From: Pseudomonadota bacterium
GTDB lineage: Bacteria > Bdellovibrionota > Oligoflexia > Oligoflexales > Oligoflexaceae
DNA: 10,456 bases
Reading direction: 5' to 3'
Assembly (NCBI GenBank): GCA_029556045.1
Contig: JAKQGS010000253.1
Span: 1 to 10,456, forward strand
The number at the start of each line of letters is the position of its first letter. The first letter of the stretch is position 1. The notes beneath the pieces are model-generated. The model did no database searches. It worked only from the letters and a program-made list of their open reading frames with translations, and was not told the origin of the DNA. Positions 1,273-10,456 of this stretch are shown one piece after another. A program made the translations under genes and the position numbers.

Positions 1273-4200
1273 CTAGGGTGAATAGGGAGTTCCGGTGTTG
1301 ATATAGGTTGGCATTCCAATACTTCCGCTATCCCCCCCCCAGATGACCATCTGAGTGCCGGTCCAAACAGCACCGTGTTTCATGCGACTGCTGGCCGCAT
1401 TGGTTGTTGACGTGGCTAAGACCCACGCATTTTGACCGGGATTGTAAAGTGCCCCTGTATTGGTGTGACCACTGCTATGCCCACCCCAAATGATCATGTC
1501 ACTTCCGGTCCAGACCGCTGTGTGCCACTTTCTGGCTGATGGCGCCCCTGTTGCTGGAAGCGTCTCCCAAGTATTGGTGGCTGGGTCATAAATACCACCC
1601 GTGTTGAATCCACCCGTCGTATTGTTGCAGGCACAACCACCAAAGACGATCATGCGGGTTCCCGTCCATACTGCAGTGTGATACCAGCGAGCAACCGGGG
1701 CATTGGTTGCCGTCAAATCATACCAGCTATCGGTGGTCGGATTGTAGCGGGCACCATCATTGTAATAGGTTGATCCATCAAAACCACCCCAGACAATCAT
1801 TTCGGTGCCAGTCCAGACAGCAGTGGCACCTTTTCGTCCCGCTGGTTCATACCCACCTTCTGCCATATAGGTCCAGGTATCCGTGGTTGGATCGTAGAGC
1901 CGTCCGCCTGTGTAATAGGTGACGCCGTCTGCACCACCCCAGATAAGCATTCTACTGCCAGTCCATACGGCGACATGGTCGCGGCGGGCAAAGGGAGTAT
2001 CAGCATTGACTGCCGTCGCAGTCCAGGTATTGGTCGTCGTATTAAATATACCCCCGGTATTTTCGGCAGCCGATGAACCATAACCTCCCCAAATAATCAT
2101 TTTACCGTCAGCAACCACCGCGGTATGACCGCGACGGGCGGTCGGTTGATTGGCCACTGGCAGAGTTGTCCATGACGCTCCATTCCAGACCGACCCGCCA
2201 GACACAGCACCACCCCCATTGGTACCGCCGAATACGATCGTCTTACCGTCAACATAGACCAAGGAAAAATCCGTACGACCGGCTGGCGAAGTTGTCAACG
2301 CTGTTCCCCATGAGTCGTTGAAAAAACGAAAATTATACGTACCACTGTTGGATGCTTGTATGTAATTTCCTGCACTGTCATATGCTTTCATGCAAACATA
2401 ATACTTGTCAGCCACAAGGGCAACTCCCTGCGTGTATGAAACTCCTGTGATATTTGAAAACGTATGCAATGGTGATGGGCAGTTTGGTTCATTATCTACC
2501 ATCAACATATAATAGTCGCTCCCGGAAGCGCTGCTCCAGTTCCACGTCGGTGTCAGAATGGTTGCCGAGCCGGGATTATTGATGGTAAACGCACCGGGCG
2601 GTGTATTATCGTGGGCAATGTCATCAGAAACACACGATGTTTCATTACCTGCCGGATCGCGAAATTTTGCATAAACGGTGGCCATTGCATTGGTTTGTCC
2701 CAGTGCCCATGACTTTTCATTTGCGTAGACTTCCCAAGATCCCCCGGAGGCACACCCCGCATCATTGGTAACATACATCTCCGTGGCACCTAAAGTGCTG
2801 AGCGACAGGAAGACCACATCGACGTTTGTGTATGCACTATAATTTGCAATGACGATGGTTTCATTGGTCGGGGGTTGATCATCATGCACAATAGTGTCGG
2901 AAACACAGTTTGAAAAATTTCCAGCATCGTCCTTAAATTTAACATATACGGTGACGATGCTATTGGTTTGCGTGAGTATCCACGATCGAGATGCCGTCAC
3001 TGGTTCCCAGACACCACCTGCAGCGCAATCACTTGCGTTGGTCACGTACATCATCGATGCCTCTGTTGCCGTAAATGAAATCATTACATTGGTACTATTT
3101 GTGGATGCAGCTCCTCCCGCAATCTGGATCGAAGCGCCCGTTGGCGCGACATTGTCATGATTGATCGAAGCAGTCAGGCAGCTGGATTCATTTCCAGCCT
3201 GATCGCGAAATTTAGCGTATAGGTTAGCCATAGTATTTAGCTGTGAAAGGTTGAAATTTTTCGCCGTGTTATAAGCCTCCCAAACCCCACCTCCACTACA
3301 GTCCGCGGATTCTGTCACATACATTTCGCTAGCTCCCGATGCGTTCAGAGCCAATGTCACGGCGACGTTATTGGTATGGGAATCGCCCCCGTTGATCGCA
3401 AAGCTATTGGCAACCGGAGCATCGCCATCATGGGTCACAGAATCCGAAACACAAGCCGATTCATTGGCTGCAGCATCTCTGAATTTGACAAAAACCGCAT
3501 TCAACCCATTGGCCACCGGCAACAGCCAACTCCGATTGCCATAGGGCTCCCATGCACCGCCACTCCCGCACCCCATGGTGTTAGTTACATACATTTCCGT
3601 CGCACCCGTAGCCACAAGTGCCAGAGCGACTGACAGGGAATTAACATATTCGACTCCCCCTGCGATGGTAAGCCCTACATCCGTTGGAGGTATGGCATCA
3701 GGCGCCGGGGAGACCGGATCATTCGTAACCACGGGAGTCGCATCGTCAAATTCAGCTTTCTCCCATGAGGAAACTGAGTCGCGTCCATCCATTGTACGGC
3801 ATTGAATTTGTACGTACAGCGTATGAGATTCCTGATTCAATGCGCTAAATTCTGCTGTCGATTGTTCGACATTCTGCGACAAATCCCATGGAGTTTTTTG
3901 ATTCAGGTCACCCACAACAAGACAATGGTCTATGGTAATTTCGTTCCCGAGACTAAAAGTGATTTTTGTCTTCCTTTTGTCATTGTCGACAACAATGTCG
4001 ACGTTCCATTCAATTGCCGGCAACTTTTGTTCTTCAACTTTTGTCAGAATCGGGGTCGTCGAAACCACTTCCGCAACAGCGGTAACCACGACTGAGGTGA
4101 AGGCGGCTTGATATACACCAAATCGCGTTTCCTGAAACGTTGCCAGGCCACCGCCAACTTTAAAATTTTGACGTGGAATGACTCCACTGTTAAAGCCACC

Positions 4201-4722
4201 TTCGCGGGACCTGACTTTATAAATAATGTTCAGATTTTCATAATCGTCCATTAATAGCAGACCAGACTGACCGGATATGGGAATATTCATGGTAAATGGG
4301 GCCATGGATTCCGCGACGTCCGAACTTTGCACGGCTACAGCCGCATGTGCCGGATGAATTTCCACAGACTGGTCCAGTTGCAATTCGTTGGCTGTCGTTC
4401 TCGTAGCGATATCCGCCGCTGCCTCAAAGGTTACTTCAGAGCCCACTGCCAGCGCTCCGGGGGGAAAAATGACATGGCTTCCGCTGATGTCACTCCCGGC
4501 GGAGCCAGAAATTTTTTGCGCCGCTGCCCCACTCCCAATGACAGCGGTAACAACACCATTTTCATCGCTGAGAATGGCAGCGTCACTCACCGTTTCGGGG
4601 GAGGCGCTGGTCATCCTGCGCTTTGATGCCGTTTCCTTCCCATTGTATTTTTCCACAAGGGTGCCGATTTGCGTGCATCCTGTCACTACGATAACCAGTG
4701 CTAAATTCATGATGCGGAGCAA
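1273..4722 (-). CDS. lipoprotein with Ig-like repeats and a seven-blade kelch propeller
   Basis: This is an 1149-residue exported lipoprotein. The TTG start at 4722 is preferred over the in-frame ATG at 4710: GGGAG lies 8 bases before the TTG but 20 before the ATG, and the TTG start keeps Arg3 in the n-region. The lipobox is VVTGC, with lipidation at Cys16; Thr follows, compatible with outer-membrane sorting. Residues about 55-210 carry an IFPPGAL motif and strands resembling a ZU5-type domain. Residues 232-327 are a further beta-rich segment. Residues 346-706 are four Ig-like repeats of about 89 residues sharing EMYVT, a GG-x-WE strand, KFRD-x-AGNES and a closing HD. Residues 707-800 are Fn3-like. 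Residues 818-1149 form seven kelch blades, with (W/F)GG at 831, 878, 928, 978, 1027, 1079 and 1128. A surface-displayed binding or adhesion role is inferred; kelch propellers usually bind proteins or sugars, and no catalytic site is claimed. A G9 tract falls in the last blade. Confidence 0.93.
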   Translation of the reverse strand: MLRIMNLALVIVVTGCTQIGTLVEKYNGKETASKRRMTSASPETVSDAAILSDENGVVTAVIGSGAAAQKISGSAGSDISGSHVIFPPGALAVGSEVTFEAAADIATRTTANELQLDQSVEIHPAHAAVAVQSSDVAESMAPFTMNIPISGQSGLLLMDDYENLNIIYKVRSREGGFNSGVIPRQNFKVGGGLATFQETRFGVYQAAFTSVVVTAVAEVVSTTPILTKVEEQKLPAIEWNVDIVVDNDKRKTKITFSLGNEITIDHCLVVGDLNQKTPWDLSQNVEQSTAEFSALNQESHTLYVQIQCRTMDGRDSVSSWEKAEFDDATPVVTNDPVSPAPDAIPPTDVGLTIAGGVEYVNSLSVALALVATGATEMYVTNTMGCGSGGAWEPYGNRSWLLPVANGLNAVFVKFRDAAANESACVSDSVTHDGDAPVANSFAINGGDSHTNNVAVTLALNASGASEMYVTESADCSGGGVWEAYNTAKNFNLSQLNTMANLYAKFRDQAGNESSCLTASINHDNVAPTGASIQIAGGAASTNSTNVMISFTATEASMMYVTNASDCAAGGVWEPVTASRSWILTQTNSIVTVYVKFKDDAGNFSNCVSDTIVHDDQPPTNETIVIANYSAYTNVDVVFLSLSTLGATEMYVTNDAGCASGGSWEVYANEKSWALGQTNAMATVYAKFRDPAGNETSCVSDDIAHDNTPPGAFTINNPGSATILTPTWNWSSASGSDYYMLMVDNEPNCPSPLHTFSNITGVSYTQGVALVADKYYVCMKAYDSAGNYIQASNSGTYNFRFFNDSWGTALTTSPAGRTDFSLVYVDGKTIVFGGTNGGGAVSGGSVWNGASWTTLPVANQPTARRGHTAVVADGKMIIWGGYGSSAAENTGGIFNTTTNTWTATAVNADTPFARRDHVAVWTGSRMLIWGGADGVTYYTGGRLYDPTTDTWTYMAEGGYEPAGRKGATAVWTGTEMIVWGGFDGSTYYNDGARYNPTTDSWYDLTATNAPVARWYHTAVWTGTRMIVFGGCACNNTTGGFNTGGIYDPATNTWETLPATGAPSARKWHTAVWTGSDMIIWGGHSSGHTNTGALYNPGQNAWVLATSTTNAASSRMKHGAVWTGTQMVIWGGDSGSIGMPTYINTGTPYSP
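1276..2271 (-). repeat. seven kelch repeats inside the kelch lipoprotein
   Basis: Blades recur about every 50 residues from residue 818 to the C-terminus. The typical unit is R-x-x-HTAVWTG-x-x-MI(V/I)WGG followed by TGG-x-Y(D/N)P-T-x-TW. The di-glycine and the later Tyr/Trp are the hallmark kelch residues. Seven copies fit one closed beta-propeller. The first copy (around IVFGG at 829-833) is the most divergent, and the last ends only about 19 residues after its WGG, so ring closure probably uses strands from both ends of the block. Confidence 0.85.
1332..1340 (-). repeat. G9 homopolymer in the last kelch blade
   Basis: Nine C on the plus strand read as G9 on the coding strand, spanning codons TGG GGG GGG GAT for W1128-G-G-D1131. 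It is the longest mononucleotide run I see in any coding region of the window. Such tracts are known slippage sites in phase-variable surface genes; here variability is inferred, not shown. Confidence 0.8.
2605..3687 (-). repeat. four tandem Ig-like repeats inside the kelch lipoprotein
   Basis: Four consecutive coding units of about 89-91 codons (residues about 346-433, 436-523, 526-614 and 617-706) encode the same pattern: EMYVT or MMYVT, a cysteine, GG-x-WE, an aromatic W/F-x-L strand, KF(R/K)D, AGN or AAN, a second cysteine, and HD. The cysteine pairs are C385/C424, C475/C515, C566/C606 and C657/C697, nearly constant at 39-40 residues apart. This suggests one disulfide per domain once exported. 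The units have diverged well beyond recent duplication. Confidence 0.85.
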
Positions 4723-5035
4723 ATTCTTATCTCCCGGTAAAATTTTTAAAACCCCGACATTTAGTCCTTCGGAAGTTTTTTTAAAATTCTTAGGGATAAG
4801 ACTTAAAACTATGAAATCATATCCTTGGCAAAATAGATGAGGCCGACTCGCAATGAGGTAGTCTTAACTATTACGTACGAATTCCCAAATTTGCGAAACA
4901 CCTAATTTTGATTTGTATTTATTGAAATCAGAGTAATAACAGCCCATACCAAAGAAAAAGAATGCCCCCCTTGATTAAGGGGAGCATGCCTTTTTATATG
5001 GGATTTATAAAGTGGACCCGACCCTGCCGCCGGGT
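4723..5035. other. 313-base intergenic region between two minus-strand genes
   Basis: The half next to 5036 holds the strong terminator at 4951-4995. The half next to 4722 is AT-rich and must carry the promoter of the kelch lipoprotein, but I see no convincing -35/-10 pair. A small inverted repeat, TCTTA-GGGA-TAAGA (4788-4801), lies about 66 bases before the TTG start and could be an operator half-site pair. No ORF with coding character or RNA gene was seen. Confidence 0.6.
4951..4995. terminator. bidirectional Rho-independent terminator
   Basis: ATGCCCCCCTT (4962-4972) and AAGGGGAGCAT (4977-4987) pair as an 11-bp stem with one G-U wobble around the 4-base loop GATT. On the minus strand the stem is followed by TTCTTTTTCTTT, a good U-tract for ending the upstream gene at 5036. 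On the plus strand it is followed by CCTTTTT. It insulates the secreted-protein gene from the kelch lipoprotein gene, so the two are separate transcription units. Confidence 0.88.
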
Positions 5036-6052
5036 TCAATTGCGGTTGCACGGGCTGTTGGGGTCAGCCGCTTCGATAACCGTCCATTGGTCCCCATAAC
5101 GCACCGCTGTCCCTAGGATCGCTTTTTCGCCCTGGACCGGCCAGCCTTCAATGCTGCGCTGAGCCTTCAGATATTCTAATGCCATGCCGGGGACCTGGAC
5201 GCGAAAGCTGTCGCACCAGTTGTGGTGGGTGTTGCGATAGTCCACCATGCTTTCAACCTCAGCACCCTGGATTAAAATCGGTTGACCACGGACACTGTCC
5301 GGCAACTTTTCATTCTGATCCACGATGCGGACTTCTTTCACACCATAAATACTGCTATGACCAGCCCCTTGTCCTGCGCAACCACTGAATGTGATGGTGG
5401 CGGAACCGAGAACTTCATCCATTGTAAACGGACGCATCGATGCCCCGCAATCCCCTGCCGTGCCACCCTCAAAGGGATTACCAAAAAGCAACTCACCGAC
5501 AAAAATGGGTTCGTTTAACGTGTAGAAATTGGTGGGTGTGTCGGTAAATCGCGTGCCGACAACCACAGTCTGGCCGCCGACTTCCTCGGCTTGGAGACGG
5601 ATGCCGCTCCCCCGGCGATTGATCAGCAGATCAAAATCCTTGGGCTCCCCAAAAATCGCATCCCCAAGGTTTTTGCCCTTGATCACGGAATTTTGCGCCG
5701 TCAGGTTTTGTTCAAAGGGACGCTCCGAGCCATCGGGAAGGATATTGCGATAGCGGAGCAAAGCGCCGATGACGGAATAGGAGCCATCATCCATTTCGCA
5801 CAGATCCAACCTGATGTTGAATTCTTTTCCCGGCTCTACAAAGGTTGGACCTTTGTTGCGATCCCAATAGGGAGACAGATCCAAACGGGTGGTATCAACA
5901 GGCTTAGGGGTTAACCCGAAAGACGTTTCTTTTCCGGCGGGACAGAGATCTTTGGCACCGAGATCCTGAAGGTCCGGACTATCCAGCGGAGACCCGGCAG
6001 CCCAGGTTACCGGAGCAGCCCCTAAAGCCGTCAAAAGAATAAGTTTTTTCAT
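5036..6052 (-). CDS. exported protein of unknown function, six cysteines
   Basis: This 338-residue protein has a classical Sec signal peptide: MKK, a hydrophobic stretch, then cleavage probably near TWA-A at residues 17-19. There is no lipobox, so a soluble periplasmic or secreted product is expected. The mature part has no transmembrane segment and contains cysteines at 37, 85, 202, 225, 280 and 335, an even number compatible with three disulfides. A Gly-rich stretch lies around 190-235 (NPFEGGTAGDCG and SGCAGQGAGHSS). I do not recognise a family. The ATG at 6052 is preceded by AAGG with a 7-base spacer, and that ribosome-binding site overlaps the edge of an 18-bp palindrome. A strong terminator follows the TGA. 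It appears monocistronic. Confidence 0.88.
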   Translation of the reverse strand: MKKLILLTALGAAPVTWAAGSPLDSPDLQDLGAKDLCPAGKETSFGLTPKPVDTTRLDLSPYWDRNKGPTFVEPGKEFNIRLDLCEMDDGSYSVIGALLRYRNILPDGSERPFEQNLTAQNSVIKGKNLGDAIFGEPKDFDLLINRRGSGIRLQAEEVGGQTVVVGTRFTDTPTNFYTLNEPIFVGELLFGNPFEGGTAGDCGASMRPFTMDEVLGSATITFSGCAGQGAGHSSIYGVKEVRIVDQNEKLPDSVRGQPILIQGAEVESMVDYRNTHHNWCDSFRVQVPGMALEYLKAQRSIEGWPVQGEKAILGTAVRYGDQWTVIEAADPNSPCNRN

Positions 6053-6061
6053 AAAATTGCC

Positions 6062-6079
6062 TTACTTTAATTAAAGTAA
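6062..6079. promoter_or_regulatory. 18-bp perfect palindrome next to the ribosome-binding site
   Basis: TTACTTTAATTAAAGTAA is perfectly self-complementary and begins nine bases before the ATG of the minus-strand gene at 6052. Its inner edge overlaps the AAGG ribosome-binding site (6060-6063). It could be a dimeric repressor operator, or in RNA form a short hairpin touching the ribosome-binding site. The core TTTAATTAAA recurs at 6526-6535, upstream of the divergent gene. Confidence 0.55.
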
Positions 6080-6098
6080 TACTAACAAAACATCGAAG

Positions 6099-6127
6099 GA
6101 AATAATATTTATTAATAAAAAAGTCAA
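6099..6127 (-). promoter_or_regulatory. possible promoter of the secreted-protein gene
   Basis: On the minus strand TTGACT (6122-6127) matches five of six -35 positions. Downstream AT-rich DNA offers TATTAT at a 14-base spacing (6102-6107) or TATTTC at 17 bases. The -10 choice is uncertain, and the low-complexity AT sequence makes chance matches likely. Confidence 0.4.
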
Positions 6128-6135
6128 ATTATTAA

Positions 6136-6141
6136 TATAAA
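6136..6141 (+). promoter_or_regulatory. possible -10 element in front of the candidate structured RNA
   Basis: TATAAA matches five of six -10 positions and lies seven bases before G6149, where the first copy of GCCCTATGC begins. A weak -35 candidate, TTAATA (6112-6117), lies 18 bases upstream. The position would start a plus-strand transcript exactly at the GC-rich block, but the surrounding DNA is so AT-rich that chance is a real alternative. Confidence 0.3.
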
Positions 6142-6148
6142 GTGTTTA

Positions 6149-6260
6149 GCCCTATGCATTGAACTGTGACCGAGCCCAATTGGAAAGGCCGGCGCGACCA
6201 GCGGTCATTTTTTATGCCCTATGCGTGGATGGGACTGAGACCGAGCCCATACGGAAAGGG
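6149..6260 (+). repeat. imperfect tandem repeat GCCCTATGC ... CTGxGACCGAGCCCA-N3-GGAAAGG
   Basis: Copy A has GCCCTATGC at 6149-6157, then CTGTGACCGAGCCCA and GGAAAGG ending at 6188. Copy B has GCCCTATGC at 6216-6224, then CTGAGACCGAGCCCA and GGAAAGG ending at 6259. The two copies start 67 bases apart, and copy B has four extra bases between its two motif halves. The conserved parts form the same GACCG-A-GCC...GGC hairpin base in both copies. Confidence 0.75.
6168..6213 (+). terminator. hairpin plus U-run in the first repeat copy
   Basis: GACCG (6168-6172) pairs with CGGTC (6202-6206), with an inner GCC/GGC pairing, and the stem is followed at once by ATTTTTT (6207-6213). This has the form of an intrinsic terminator for plus-strand transcription, although the 5-bp outer stem with a large loop is weak. 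Bases 6186-6198 of its loop are also one arm of the 13-bp long-range stem, so the two structures could compete. Confidence 0.35.
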
Positions 6261-6610
6261 CAGCAGGGTGGAAGGGTCCCACCGGAGCGCAGACGCGGTC
6301 CCCAAAAGCAACTTCTGTCCCACGGGTGCGACCGCGGCGAGTGAGGTGGGAAGCGTCCGCCCGTCGCGCCGGCCTCGCCCCGGACTACATGCCCCTCCCT
6401 GTCACCGTTGCTGCAATTCATGCGCCCACCTAACCTCTTGCCCCTTCATCACGAAATTCGACCCCCTGCCAGACTGACAGACACTCTCATCGAGTTGGAC
6501 AGTAATTTAACCAACATCCTACTGTTTTAATTAAATATTTTATCTAGCACGGTAGTTGCACAATACAAGACAAAGACTGTTCCTCAGCCCCAGAACGCGG
6601 GAGGTTTGCC

Positions 6611-6949
6611 ATGCTGATCCGAATTTCACTTTTAGCTTTCGTCATTTCCGTGGGTGTCTACCAAAGCTGTGGCACCGCGGAATTTGCAGCCGATACGGAA
6701 ACCGGAGAGGCTCATCCGGTCATCATTCCGGTGGATATCCCCACCGATGAACAGGAATCACCCGATCCTGCGCCCACCGTTGCCACGGAGCCTGATCCCA
6801 CTTCCACGGAGTGCCCTCCGGTAGACGCGGGTCAAAATCAAAACCAGAATCAGAATGAGGGAGACTACGACGGGCTACCGCCCCATTGCCAGCCGAACGG
6901 TGGGCAAAACGGTGGACAAAATGGCGGTCAGAACCAGAGTCAGAATTAA
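6611..6949 (+). CDS. small Gln/Asn-rich lipoprotein
   Basis: This 112-residue product starts at an ATG with GGGAGG six bases upstream. Residues 1-20 are a lipoprotein-type signal: Arg4, a hydrophobic stretch, then VYQSC with Cys20. The lipobox is non-canonical because Gln occupies the usual -2 position, so lipidation is probable rather than certain. The mature part is low complexity: an acidic Pro/Thr/Glu-rich linker (about 28-68), then QNQNQNQN near residue 75, and three GGQN units followed by QSQN at the C-terminus. No globular domain is seen. Surface anchoring with an unstructured Q/N-rich tail is inferred; the function is unknown. The gene stands alone: it is divergent from the secreted-protein gene and convergent with the beta-barrel gene, and its TAA overlaps that gene's stop codon. 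Confidence 0.75.
   Translation: MLIRISLLAFVISVGVYQSCGTAEFAADTETGEAHPVIIPVDIPTDEQESPDPAPTVATEPDPTSTECPPVDAGQNQNQNQNEGDYDGLPPHCQPNGGQNGGQNGGQNQSQN
6899..6946 (+). repeat. 12-bp GGQN coding repeats
   Basis: Three 12-base units encode Gly-Gly-Gln-Asn (GGTGGGCAAAAC, GGTGGACAAAAT, GGCGGTCAGAAC), followed by CAGAGTCAGAAT for Gln-Ser-Gln-Asn. The units differ mostly at third codon positions, so the peptide pattern is better kept than the DNA. Confidence 0.75.
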
Positions 6950-7630: not shown

Positions 7631-7717
7631 CAATATCCCACCCTATCCCTAAACATTTCCAGCTGATACCTGGCGCGCATTCATCCCCCCAATGGCCTCT
7701 GTGAGAATCCTTCCCTA

Positions 7718-7746
7718 TTGCCTCGATCGGAACGCAGGGATATACA
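7718..7746 (+). promoter_or_regulatory. possible promoter of the addB-like gene
   Basis: TTGCCT (7718-7723) and TATACA (7741-7746) each match four of six sigma-70 positions and are exactly 17 bases apart. They lie 66 bases upstream of the ATG at 7812. Confidence 0.4.
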
Positions 7747-7811
7747 CATACATAACCACCAATAACGGTCATTCTTGCCAACACCCAACGGCACCCCGGG
7801 AAAGCGACTCC

Positions 7812-10456
7812 ATGACCTTGCGTCTCATGCCACCCCATACCGATATGATTCAGGTCCTGGCGGAGGAACTTCTCGCCATCCCCCGTCCCGAGCTGCGCCA
7901 AACCCTGGTGCTGCTGCCCACGCAGCGACTGGGCACCCAACTTTTGGCCACCATATCCATGAAGGAAGCGGCCTTTGTGCCTCCACAGGTTCTCACCATG
8001 GAGGGTTTTCTCGCGCGGGAAGCCGCCCGTATTAAACCATTGGCCCCTGTGATACCGGATACCGCCTGGGAATGGGTGCTGGCCGACATCATACGCGGGG
8101 GCTCCTATGAGCACGTGCGGCAGGGGCACGAGCGGGAGCTGCGACTTTTTCACCAGGAGTTAACGGAAGCGGGTCTAGCCGATATTGGATTCGCCAAACT
8201 GCGGGAAACCCTGTCCATCGATGTGTACCGCTCGGACGAACACCAGGGTTCTCTCTTCGCCCGCATCGATGAAATGGAAATCATTCTATCCGCAGCCCAG
8301 GATAAACTGCGCCAGTGGGGCGTGCAGACCAAGGGTGAATCGCTTGCAACAGCGGCGAAAATCCTCGCAGAGGCGTTGGGTCAACAGACCTGGCAACCGC
8401 CCTGGGAGCGAATCTATTGGGTTGGATTCACCAGCACCGTCGAGAGTTGGACGCCATTTCTGCGTTCATTGCAAAACCTGCCGCAGGTGCAATGCTGGCT
8501 CAGTCAAAGCCCCCCTCTTTATGCGGTCCAAAACCCGCTCCGAAAATTTGCCGAACGGGTCTTCGCTCTAGGCGATCAGGATATGCATCCGCCGAGTAAC
8601 CCCGCTAGCCAGGTGTTTGTGGCAGAATCGCCATCCCCGGCTCATGAGGTGATTCAGGCCCTTTCCCTGGCCCATCATTTGATCCGCGGTGGGGTATCCC
8701 CATCCCACATCGGTATTCTGGTCACCAATGAAGGGGACTATGCACCGCTTCTGCGAACCTATGGCCCGCTGTTTCAGGTGCCGATGAATCTGGCCATCAC
8801 GTTCCCACTATCCCATACGGAAGCGGGAGCATGGCTCAAAGCCCTGACGACCTATCTGCGACAGCCAAAGTCGATTCATTTGCTCCCCTTTTTGATGCAT
8901 CCCCTCACCTGCCAGTTGTTGCGGGGGGAGAGCGATATATCATCAGCCCACTGGGCTAGCGCCATCACCCAGGCATTTCAACGTCAACCGCATCAACCGG
9001 ATTTCCTGCAACTGCAGGAGCATCTGCCGCATGCCATGCGCCCTATGGCGGCGACCCTGGAGGGTTTGCTGACACGGGTGGCGATTCAGGGCGCAACCCC
9101 ACAACCACTGGCGGCTTGGTTGGCGCCATGGCAAACGATGGTTGACCATTTAAAACTCTTTGCCACCGACGGTGAGCACAGTGACATCGCCCAGGCCAGC
9201 GAAGAGGTCTGGCGCCAGTTTGAATCCCTGTTGACCCAGTGGAGCCCGCACCTCTCGAACGCTGTTTCCGGTGGGGAATTCCTGGCCCTGCTGGAACGGC
9301 ACGTGTTGGCAGCGGATCTGCGCACCGTCGGCGAGCCTCTCGCGGGAGTGCAGGTATTAAGCCTAGCGGAGTCCCGCATGATGCCATTTGCCTACGTTAT
9401 GATCCTGGGGTGCAACGAGGGTATTTTTCCCAAATCCCTCCCCCAGGATGAGTTGCTGGACGACTTTCTCAAACGCCAGATCGGCCTTCCCGGCTGGGGT
9501 ATGCTGGAGGCCATGGAGGATCTGACGTTCCACTTTCTGCAATGGCGTATCCCGCACCTGATCCTGCACTATTCCCGCGAAGACCTGAATGGCCTGCGGG
9601 TGAAGTCCCGTTTCGTGGAAAACGTGCTGGCCCAGGGAGCAACCGAATGGCCCGCGTTTCAATTTGACCCGGAGGTTTTCAGCCGATCCTATACACGACT
9701 GAAATTCCCTCCCGGACCCCGTCGCCGTCCCGAGGGCAGGATCGGCACACCGCAAAAGGTACGTCGATTGCCCATGTCCGCAAGTTCTCTGGGGGACCTG
9801 CTGAAATGCCCCTACCGCTACCTCCTGCACTCTTTGCAGGTGCGAGAGATGACTCTGCCCTCCCTTAAGCCTGATCTGCGGCAGGAGGGGGATTGGCTGC
9901 ATGCCGTGCTGGAGGCTTTTTTCACGGGCCATGTAGGGGGCCGCCGAATTCTTCCCCATGAGCCGGGTGCATCGACAACTATGGACTTTTCTGATTACGC
10001 CTTACAACGACTGATGACGTTGACACGGCTTCTAGCCCCAACAGGCAGTGAACAAACCGTGTTATTTCACCAATTGCAGCACTACTCCTGGCCCCGATTT
10101 GCCGCTCACCTGGCAACCCTCTACGATCGTGATGTCTGGTGCGTTTTTGAGCGGGGGCATCGGGAGTTTCGCCTGGCGCCCCATCAGCAAAAGGGGCATC
10201 CCGCGCATATCACCGTCAGCAGTGTTCCCCGTCCTGTGCGCGGTTCCATCGATAGTATCGATCCAGGGGCCTTTGGCCCAGTCATCACCGACTATAAACG
10301 CAAAAACGTTCCCAACGCCGCCTCGGTGGATCGGGGCGACAGCCCGCAGCTGATCTTCTATAGTATGGCGCTGGCGGGACTAGAGAAAAATCCCCTGGAT
10401 CTATCGCAACTGATCGTGGGCTATTGGAGTATTCTCGATGCCAAGTGGACCCCGAT
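7812..10456 (+). CDS. addB: AddB-like helicase/nuclease subunit, PD-(D/E)XK family (runs off right edge)
   Basis: The frame is open for 881 codons from the ATG at 7812 to the window edge; the stop lies outside. AddB proteins pair with AddA to resect DNA double-strand breaks for RecA-dependent repair, a role equivalent to RecBCD. Motifs in order: LVLLPTQR (32-39), the motif Ia-like strand; the superfamily I-like C-terminal core GCNEGIFP near 533-540; and a C-terminal RecB-type nuclease beginning SASSLGDLLKCPYRYLL (656-672). The nuclease shows WLHAVLE (His697), GSIDSID (Asp814), TDYK (Asp827, Lys829) and QL-x-x-Y (Gln846), the expected catalytic series. Cys666 would be the first of the four cysteines that bind an iron-sulfur cluster in B. 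subtilis AddB; the others would lie beyond the edge. No Walker A motif precedes LVLLPTQR, as in alphaproteobacterial-type AddB. The start is uncertain: only a weak GGGAAAG precedes it. addA is expected downstream. Confidence 0.85.
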   Translation, partial: MTLRLMPPHTDMIQVLAEELLAIPRPELRQTLVLLPTQRLGTQLLATISMKEAAFVPPQVLTMEGFLAREAARIKPLAPVIPDTAWEWVLADIIRGGSYEHVRQGHERELRLFHQELTEAGLADIGFAKLRETLSIDVYRSDEHQGSLFARIDEMEIILSAAQDKLRQWGVQTKGESLATAAKILAEALGQQTWQPPWERIYWVGFTSTVESWTPFLRSLQNLPQVQCWLSQSPPLYAVQNPLRKFAERVFALGDQDMHPPSNPASQVFVAESPSPAHEVIQALSLAHHLIRGGVSPSHIGILVTNEGDYAPLLRTYGPLFQVPMNLAITFPLSHTEAGAWLKALTTYLRQPKSIHLLPFLMHPLTCQLLRGESDISSAHWASAITQAFQRQPHQPDFLQLQEHLPHAMRPMAATLEGLLTRVAIQGATPQPLAAWLAPWQTMVDHLKLFATDGEHSDIAQASEEVWRQFESLLTQWSPHLSNAVSGGEFLALLERHVLAADLRTVGEPLAGVQVLSLAESRMMPFAYVMILGCNEGIFPKSLPQDELLDDFLKRQIGLPGWGMLEAMEDLTFHFLQWRIPHLILHYSREDLNGLRVKSRFVENVLAQGATEWPAFQFDPEVFSRSYTRLKFPPGPRRRPEGRIGTPQKVRRLPMSASSLGDLLKCPYRYLLHSLQVREMTLPSLKPDLRQEGDWLHAVLEAFFTGHVGGRRILPHEPGASTTMDFSDYALQRLMTLTRLLAPTGSEQTVLFHQLQHYSWPRFAAHLATLYDRDVWCVFERGHREFRLAPHQQKGHPAHITVSSVPRPVRGSIDSIDPGAFGPVITDYKRKNVPNAASVDRGDSPQLIFYSMALAGLEKNPLDLSQLIVGYWSILDAKWTP

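Follow-up and report, generated by a model that had tools for sequence, protein, structure and literature searches.

A worn copy of a dispersed palindromic repeat with a conserved internal loop in a relative of Oligoflexus

The window analysed here is a stretch of 10,456 nucleotides from a bacterium of the family Oligoflexaceae. Its left part holds a 1149-aa frame (1273-4722) with matches to kelch-type beta-propellers and, at 4954-4995 between two minus-strand genes, an AT-flanked GC hairpin made up of an A-run, a CCCCCCTTGATTAAGGGG-type stem and a T-run. Judged by its sequence, this hairpin looks like an ordinary bidirectional terminator, and a weak match there of one of the models introduced below (R1) appears to be due to chance. 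The next frame (5036-6052, minus strand, 338 aa) has no Pfam match, and a short-word search among about 5.8 billion proteins returned no relative of it other than itself. This frame is divergent from a plus-strand gene at 6611-6949, and the right end of the window is taken up by a 921-aa frame (7692-10454) with a PD-(D/E)XK nuclease domain. Seven homologues of the nuclease, one of them 92% identical, were found among the best 7999 candidates by shared words, and, in the named genome collection, its top-ranking relatives come from metagenome-assembled genomes (MAGs) labelled Proteobacteria bacterium, Oligoflexus sp. and Oligoflexales. Given that one homologue (P0001) begins with MTLRLMPPH, the true start of the nuclease probably lies 41 codons further downstream than listed.

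Between the divergent genes lies a GC-rich island (6149-6385). In 60-base segments, GC content is 0.53-0.80 between 6140 and 6409, compared with 0.15 at 6080-6139. An earlier reading from the sequence alone (hereafter, the sequence-only reading) had described an island with abrupt edges; the island and its left edge are borne out, whereas on the right GC declines gradually, with values of 0.55-0.58 still seen up to about 6499. The 13-nt inverted repeat on which that reading was built is present, AGGCCGGCGCGAC at 6186-6198 being perfectly complementary to GTCGCGCCGGCCT at 6363-6375, and a repeat finder lengthens it to 19 nt at 89% (6186-6204 and 6357-6375). Likewise present are the hairpins with GACC/GGTC stems, namely GACCAGCGGTC at 6196-6206 and GCGGTC (6295-6300) with GACCGC (6330-6335). 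Two direct repeats were absent from that account, one of 39 nt (77% identical; 6155-6193 and 6226-6264) and, immediately before it, one of 14 nt (6149-6162 and 6216-6229).

Single-sequence folding, which had been proposed as a check, gave energies within chance on both strands: z was -1.31 on the plus strand (19 of 200 shuffles as stable) and -1.28 on the minus strand (24 of 200). The claim that no known RNA signature fits was upheld, and the candidates of this kind were rejected: Rfam (release 15) covariance models had no match in the window up to an E-value of 5 and none over the core of seven related loci at the same limit, the lone exception near a core being a sub-threshold 20.6-bit match at L098 1397-1430, and a search of the window for tRNA and tmRNA found none.

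Relatives of the island occur in multiple copies. The comparison set comprised the 58 genomes of the class of an Oligoflexus MAG (G002); the phylum of G013 gives the same 58. With 6130-6500 as the query, blastn produced short matches (E up to 0.05) in four of the 58 genomes; they recur at several places in two of these, G015 and G013, as parts of one element, and in G015 two of the matching stretches are collinear with the window. At an E-value limit of 0.01, the covariance model R1 matched G013 43 times and G015 10 times, each of these totals counting one place twice, once per strand, and it gave no match among the best-scoring candidates per genome in the other 56, where MAGs may be incomplete. 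The window is part of the training sets of R1 and R3, and R1 scores 69.7 bits on it (6253-6379). A model built from 39 G013 and G015 copies with the window excluded (R2) still matches the window at 6258-6377 on the plus strand (49.4 bits, E 1.4e-13), the second-best place in the window scoring 10.1 bits, so that the window copy is a member of the family by an independent test.

A broader model gave no match among the best-scoring candidates per genome in 40 of the other 56 class genomes, and none came from 33 genomes reached via more distant loci, a scan that had no positive control. No matches were obtained with a 20-base motif in genome contigs, with an 18-base motif in viral contigs, or by blastn against plasmid and phage sequences; a loose gapped pattern picked out 22 loci in viral contigs, and the model supported none of them (best 12.7 bits, E 0.72). 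Judged by its nuclease protein, the window stands nearer to G001 and G002 (434.6 and 426 bits, respectively), both without an element match among the best-scoring candidates per genome, than to G013 and G015 (341.2 and 272.2 bits). The element is present in a few lineages related to Oligoflexus and its distribution is patchy. We found no earlier description of it among the titles and abstracts of open-licence papers, and passages of the Oligoflexus tunisiensis genome paper (PMC5154148) contain no mention of such a repeat. The island is a worn copy of a dispersed palindromic repeat that has not been described before in the literature searched.

Read on the plus strand from the outside in, the unit consists of P1, an asymmetric loop, P2, a purine-rich loop, P3, an internal loop, P4 and a variable tip (Table 1). 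The asymmetric internal loop has GGGCAGC on its 5' side facing GCGCCGRCC on its 3' side, and the window version is 94-100% identical to those of the G013 and G015 lineages. Between the three lineages, identity amounts to 92-100% in the loop strands, 49-82% in P2, 29-47% in the arms and 27-32% in the tip. P2 occurs in G013 in several versions, all complementary (AGATCGG/CCGATCG, CAGACAGA/TCTGTCTG and AGCTTGG/CCAAGCG), and in most G015 copies one P2 pair is mismatched.

Table 1. Parts of the element copies in the window.
Feature	Position	Strand	Basis or remark
Left (reverse) copy, outer arm and first direct-repeat member	6149..6185	.	direct repeats D1, D2
Putative left-copy relic, reverse complement of the conserved 3' end (GGCCGGCGCGAC...)	6186..6206	-	by-eye comparison
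T6 run after the putative left-copy relic	6208-6213		
Right copy, 5' outer arm and second direct-repeat member	6216..6257	+	direct repeats, model alignment
Right copy, structured core	6253..6379	+	R1, R2 matches
Internal loop, 5' strand GGGCAGC(A)	6258..6265	+	94-100% identical between lineages
Internal loop, 3' strand GCGCCGGCC	6366..6374	+	92-96% identical between lineages
P2, 5' side GGGTGG	6266..6271	+	pairs with 6357-6362
P2, 3' side CCGCCC	6357..6362	+	both sides changed at 5 of 5 P2 pairs, 42 copies
P3, 5' side TCCCACC	6277..6283	+	pairs with 6345-6351; 7 pairs read from the window
P3, 3' side GGTGGGA	6345..6351	+	both sides changed at 3 of 6 P3 pairs
P4, 5' side GCGGTC	6295..6300	+	pairs with 6330-6335; in the single-sequence fold
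P4, 3' side GACCGC	6330..6335	+	model aligns P4 in a partly shifted register

In G013, matches form 14 head-to-head pairs, with the left member on the minus strand and the right member on the plus strand, 44-58 nt apart; 13 of the 14 include one CAGACAGA-type member. The order in the window is the same, with an arm and the reverse complement of a 3' end at 6149-6206 followed by an arm and a forward copy at 6216-6379. The segment 6186-6206 would be a relic of the left copy, the remainder of which appears to be gone; R2 gives the left relic 7.8 bits (E 0.56; 6168-6241, minus strand). In the right copy, the 3' partner of the 5' outer arm is nearly lost, and the model alignment pairs the innermost bases alone. 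Thus, of the complementary closing arms (P1) that define the family, the window has retained the innermost pairs only. It is fairly likely that 6149-6383 represents a degraded head-to-head pair, whose right copy is nearly complete and whose left copy is cut down to its 3' end. Given that one unit has kept its 3' end alone and the other has lost nearly all of its closing stem, the window copy is probably inactive. Two G013 copies, L163 and L164, are palindromic recombinants that lack the centre of a pair.

This arrangement accounts for the 13-bp stem, which the sequence-only reading had taken for the closing helix of a domain. Both head-to-head copies keep the conserved 3' loop strand, so their 3' ends are complementary; the closing helix proper is P1, nearly lost in the window. 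The pseudoknot proposed between GTCCG (6355-6359) and CGGAC (6381-6385) is abandoned as well: the former lies mostly on the 3' side of a conserved stem and has ATCCG, TGCCG or ATTCT as its counterpart in homologues, and the latter is outside the conserved core.

The collected homologues vary with compensation in their inner stems. In an alignment of 16 copies, including the window, made by MAFFT without structure (A2), RNAalifold called 48 pairs, 32 of them changed on both sides, and the covariation score with P1 included was 0.644, compared with 0.210 for shuffled and at most 0.160 for slid alignments. A larger alignment (A5) is limited to E-values of at most 5e-14, which leaves 42 matches, among them the window, with L163 and L164 falling below the cut-off. 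With P1 excluded, both sides were changed at 16 of 24 inner-stem pairs in these 42 copies, and the score was 0.369 vs. 0.171 shuffled and at most 0.115 slid; A5, like A3, was fitted to the model structure and is hence biased toward it. The number of further pair types in the inner stems, 34, is close to the shuffled value of 32.2 (119 of 500 shuffles reach 34). The asymmetric loop is retained in all of the 42 aligned copies except L173, an indication that its retention is not accidental, albeit from a biased count, given that loop-less copies score low, as L163 and L164 do.

Conservation of the loop could instead reflect a cellular RNA function. Specifically, the copies might constitute a functional small-RNA family, with a conserved loop that serves either in protein binding or in catalysis; its copies would have multiplied via duplication or by being carried on REP-bounded elements. 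The persistence of the asymmetric loop across three lineages and the compensated inner stems are in line with this possibility, and so is the excess of G-U over A-C mismatches in the A-type P1 arms of G013 (9 to 0) and the inner stems of G015 (13 to 0), as if RNA of the plus strand were selected. In contrast, the corresponding counts are 3 to 4 in the G015 arms (152 Watson-Crick and nine other pairs) and 21 to 21 in the B-type arms of G013, and the inner stems of G013 show 15 to 9 (A-type) and 6 to 8 (B-type). These counts come from 40 of 59 aligned rows, related copies sharing changes by descent; the 19 dropped rows were antisense self-matches of palindromic copies, L163, L164 and L173 on both strands, L174 and the window. 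The counts do not separate RNA from DNA. Moreover, a sigma-70 scan of 5900-6700, blind to other promoter types, detected no promoter-like site, and a small-RNA family has to be squared with the lack of matches in 56 of the 58 class genomes. On balance, we consider a small RNA rather unlikely.

At seven of the nine G015 loci, the arms are 20-24 nt long and near-perfectly complementary within a copy (0-3 mismatches), and they are dissimilar between copies beyond the innermost AAGAGG. Template switching can create and mend hairpins, as described in PMC8794818; because arms can be built and mended in this way, covariation in P1 is no proof of selection on RNA. A rival account would make the element a passive quasi-palindrome that is copied and corrected by template switching during replication, with no recognition in trans and with covariation as a mutational by-product. 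Apart from the palindromic recombinants L163 and L164, such an account finds backing in the G015 copy L173, where the internal loop has been turned into a perfect palindrome, and in the other long perfect inverted repeats with unrelated interiors, of which there are 22 in 341,813 bases of G015 and seven in 397,003 bases of G013. Nine stretches with such repeats were viewed; some share arms, and two of the seven in G013 are the element copy L280. Yet correction should erase the asymmetric loop, which is kept in nearly all copies in the count qualified above, and dispersal to many unrelated sites requires a copying mechanism. We therefore regard a purely passive palindrome as quite improbable. 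A separate repeated palindrome was also observed in G015 (L241 4970-5124 and L243 7031-7185); its 21-bp arms read CAATGTCATTCGGTTAAGGCA, and a 29-bp hairpin is nested within it.

The genomic surroundings bear on a cis-acting role. The sequence-only reading had envisaged a single-copy non-coding RNA or a leader or riboswitch of one gene; of this proposal, an unrecognised, conserved, structured element stands, and the single-copy or one-gene part gives way to a multi-copy dispersed repeat. According to rough ORF calls, neighbours are convergent at six of the 19 G013 loci, divergent at six and co-directional at seven, and the nine G015 loci comprise three convergent and four co-directional ones and two at contig ends. 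A Pfam scan of ten neighbours returned different families, including nucleotidyl transferase, porin, FtsX permease, peptidase, methylmalonyl-CoA mutase and MFS transporter, with three of the ten left without a match. Since both the neighbouring genes and their orientations vary, a regulator of one class of genes is unlikely. A leader or riboswitch of one of the divergent genes in the window, which its position between them would suit, is thus highly improbable, and the lack of an Rfam match and the near loss of the closing stem in the window also speak against it. Near two G015 copies, starts of RF02001 group II introns are found at contig ends (L098 1883-1929 and L092 1-42), which suggests multi-copy group II introns in that genome.

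Most of the G013 units have a further, outer boundary. Using a criterion of up to one mismatch within 250 nt, 17 of the 19 loci are flanked on both sides by REP-like palindromes in inverted order (GGAACCAGCTGCGCAGTTTCC and variants), their spans being 271-506 nt; the exceptions are L146, with no such palindrome, and L161, with one. At up to one mismatch, the palindrome has 132 matches in G013 and 77 in G015, and a reversed control never matched; none was seen by eye in the window. Direct repeats flanking the 17 G013 loci measure 3.18 nt, compared with 3.16 nt in shuffled pairs, that is, no target duplication is apparent, and a MITE of the DDE type was rejected on these grounds. The transposase domain Y1_Tnp (PF01797) has one match in G013 and 12 in G015, none of which adjoins a complete core; a REP-like palindrome (up to three mismatches) is present at three of these 13 loci. 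The G013 match (L229) is an IS200/IS605-like Y1 transposase (147-aa frame) with a REP-like palindrome at 3272, followed on the opposite strand by an apparent TnpB-type gene.

The closest known systems are the REP, REPIN and BIME elements, including the GTAG and CGTC families (PMC3733652, PMC3116915). Like REPs and REPINs as portrayed in PMC3733652, the element is extragenic, dispersed and palindromic, forms head-to-head heterodimers and contains no gene; it is a multi-copy palindrome of this kind in both G013 and G015, and the window shows one pair. The absence of a visible target duplication and the inverted REP-like palindromes that bound the G013 unit itself extend the resemblance. Unlike REPs, which measure 20-40 bp (PMC3733652), the unit is about 160 nt long and has conserved internal loops as well as three inner stems. 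No gene for a REP-associated transposase (RAYT, Y1) was found beside a complete core in G013 or G015. MITEs moved by DDE transposases are similarly short, gene-free and multi-copy, with inverted ends as in G013; the element differs from them in having no target-site duplication and, in G015, copies with unrelated arms. The attC sites of integrons are imperfect hairpins with variable stems that are recognised by structure and that conserve their outer boxes. The element shares the imperfect hairpin and the variable stems; in contrast to attC, its outermost arms vary and the conserved loop is inside.

Taken together, we favour, with moderate confidence, a non-autonomous mobile palindrome similar to REP and REPIN elements that carries an undescribed structured core. 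Each unit, as a single strand of DNA or RNA, would fold into a long hairpin and might be recognised at the loop by a trans-acting factor that moves or copies the element, much as TnpA_REP presumably moves REP and REPIN elements. The arms may be made and mended in part by template switching at the hairpin. Mobility is deduced from dispersal to unrelated sites combined with the patchy distribution; no transposition event or empty site was seen among the loci. A more far-reaching proposal, which we deem unlikely, is that an undescribed mobility system acting in trans recognises the loop. Its substrate would be a large single strand in folded form (RNA or ssDNA), and its copying step would generate, around each new copy, an inverted duplication of about 20-24 nt that is specific to the site. 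A new duplication with every copy would explain why the G015 arms are unrelated and still near-perfectly complementary.

For a bacterial class that has received little study, the present analysis describes a family of structured dispersed palindromes that is new with respect to the literature searched. Some of the covariation in its stems may arise from template switching at the DNA level, and the family thus offers a possible natural test of how far covariation can be taken as proof of an RNA function. Furthermore, if the loop is a recognition site, an enzyme that is not yet known is implied.
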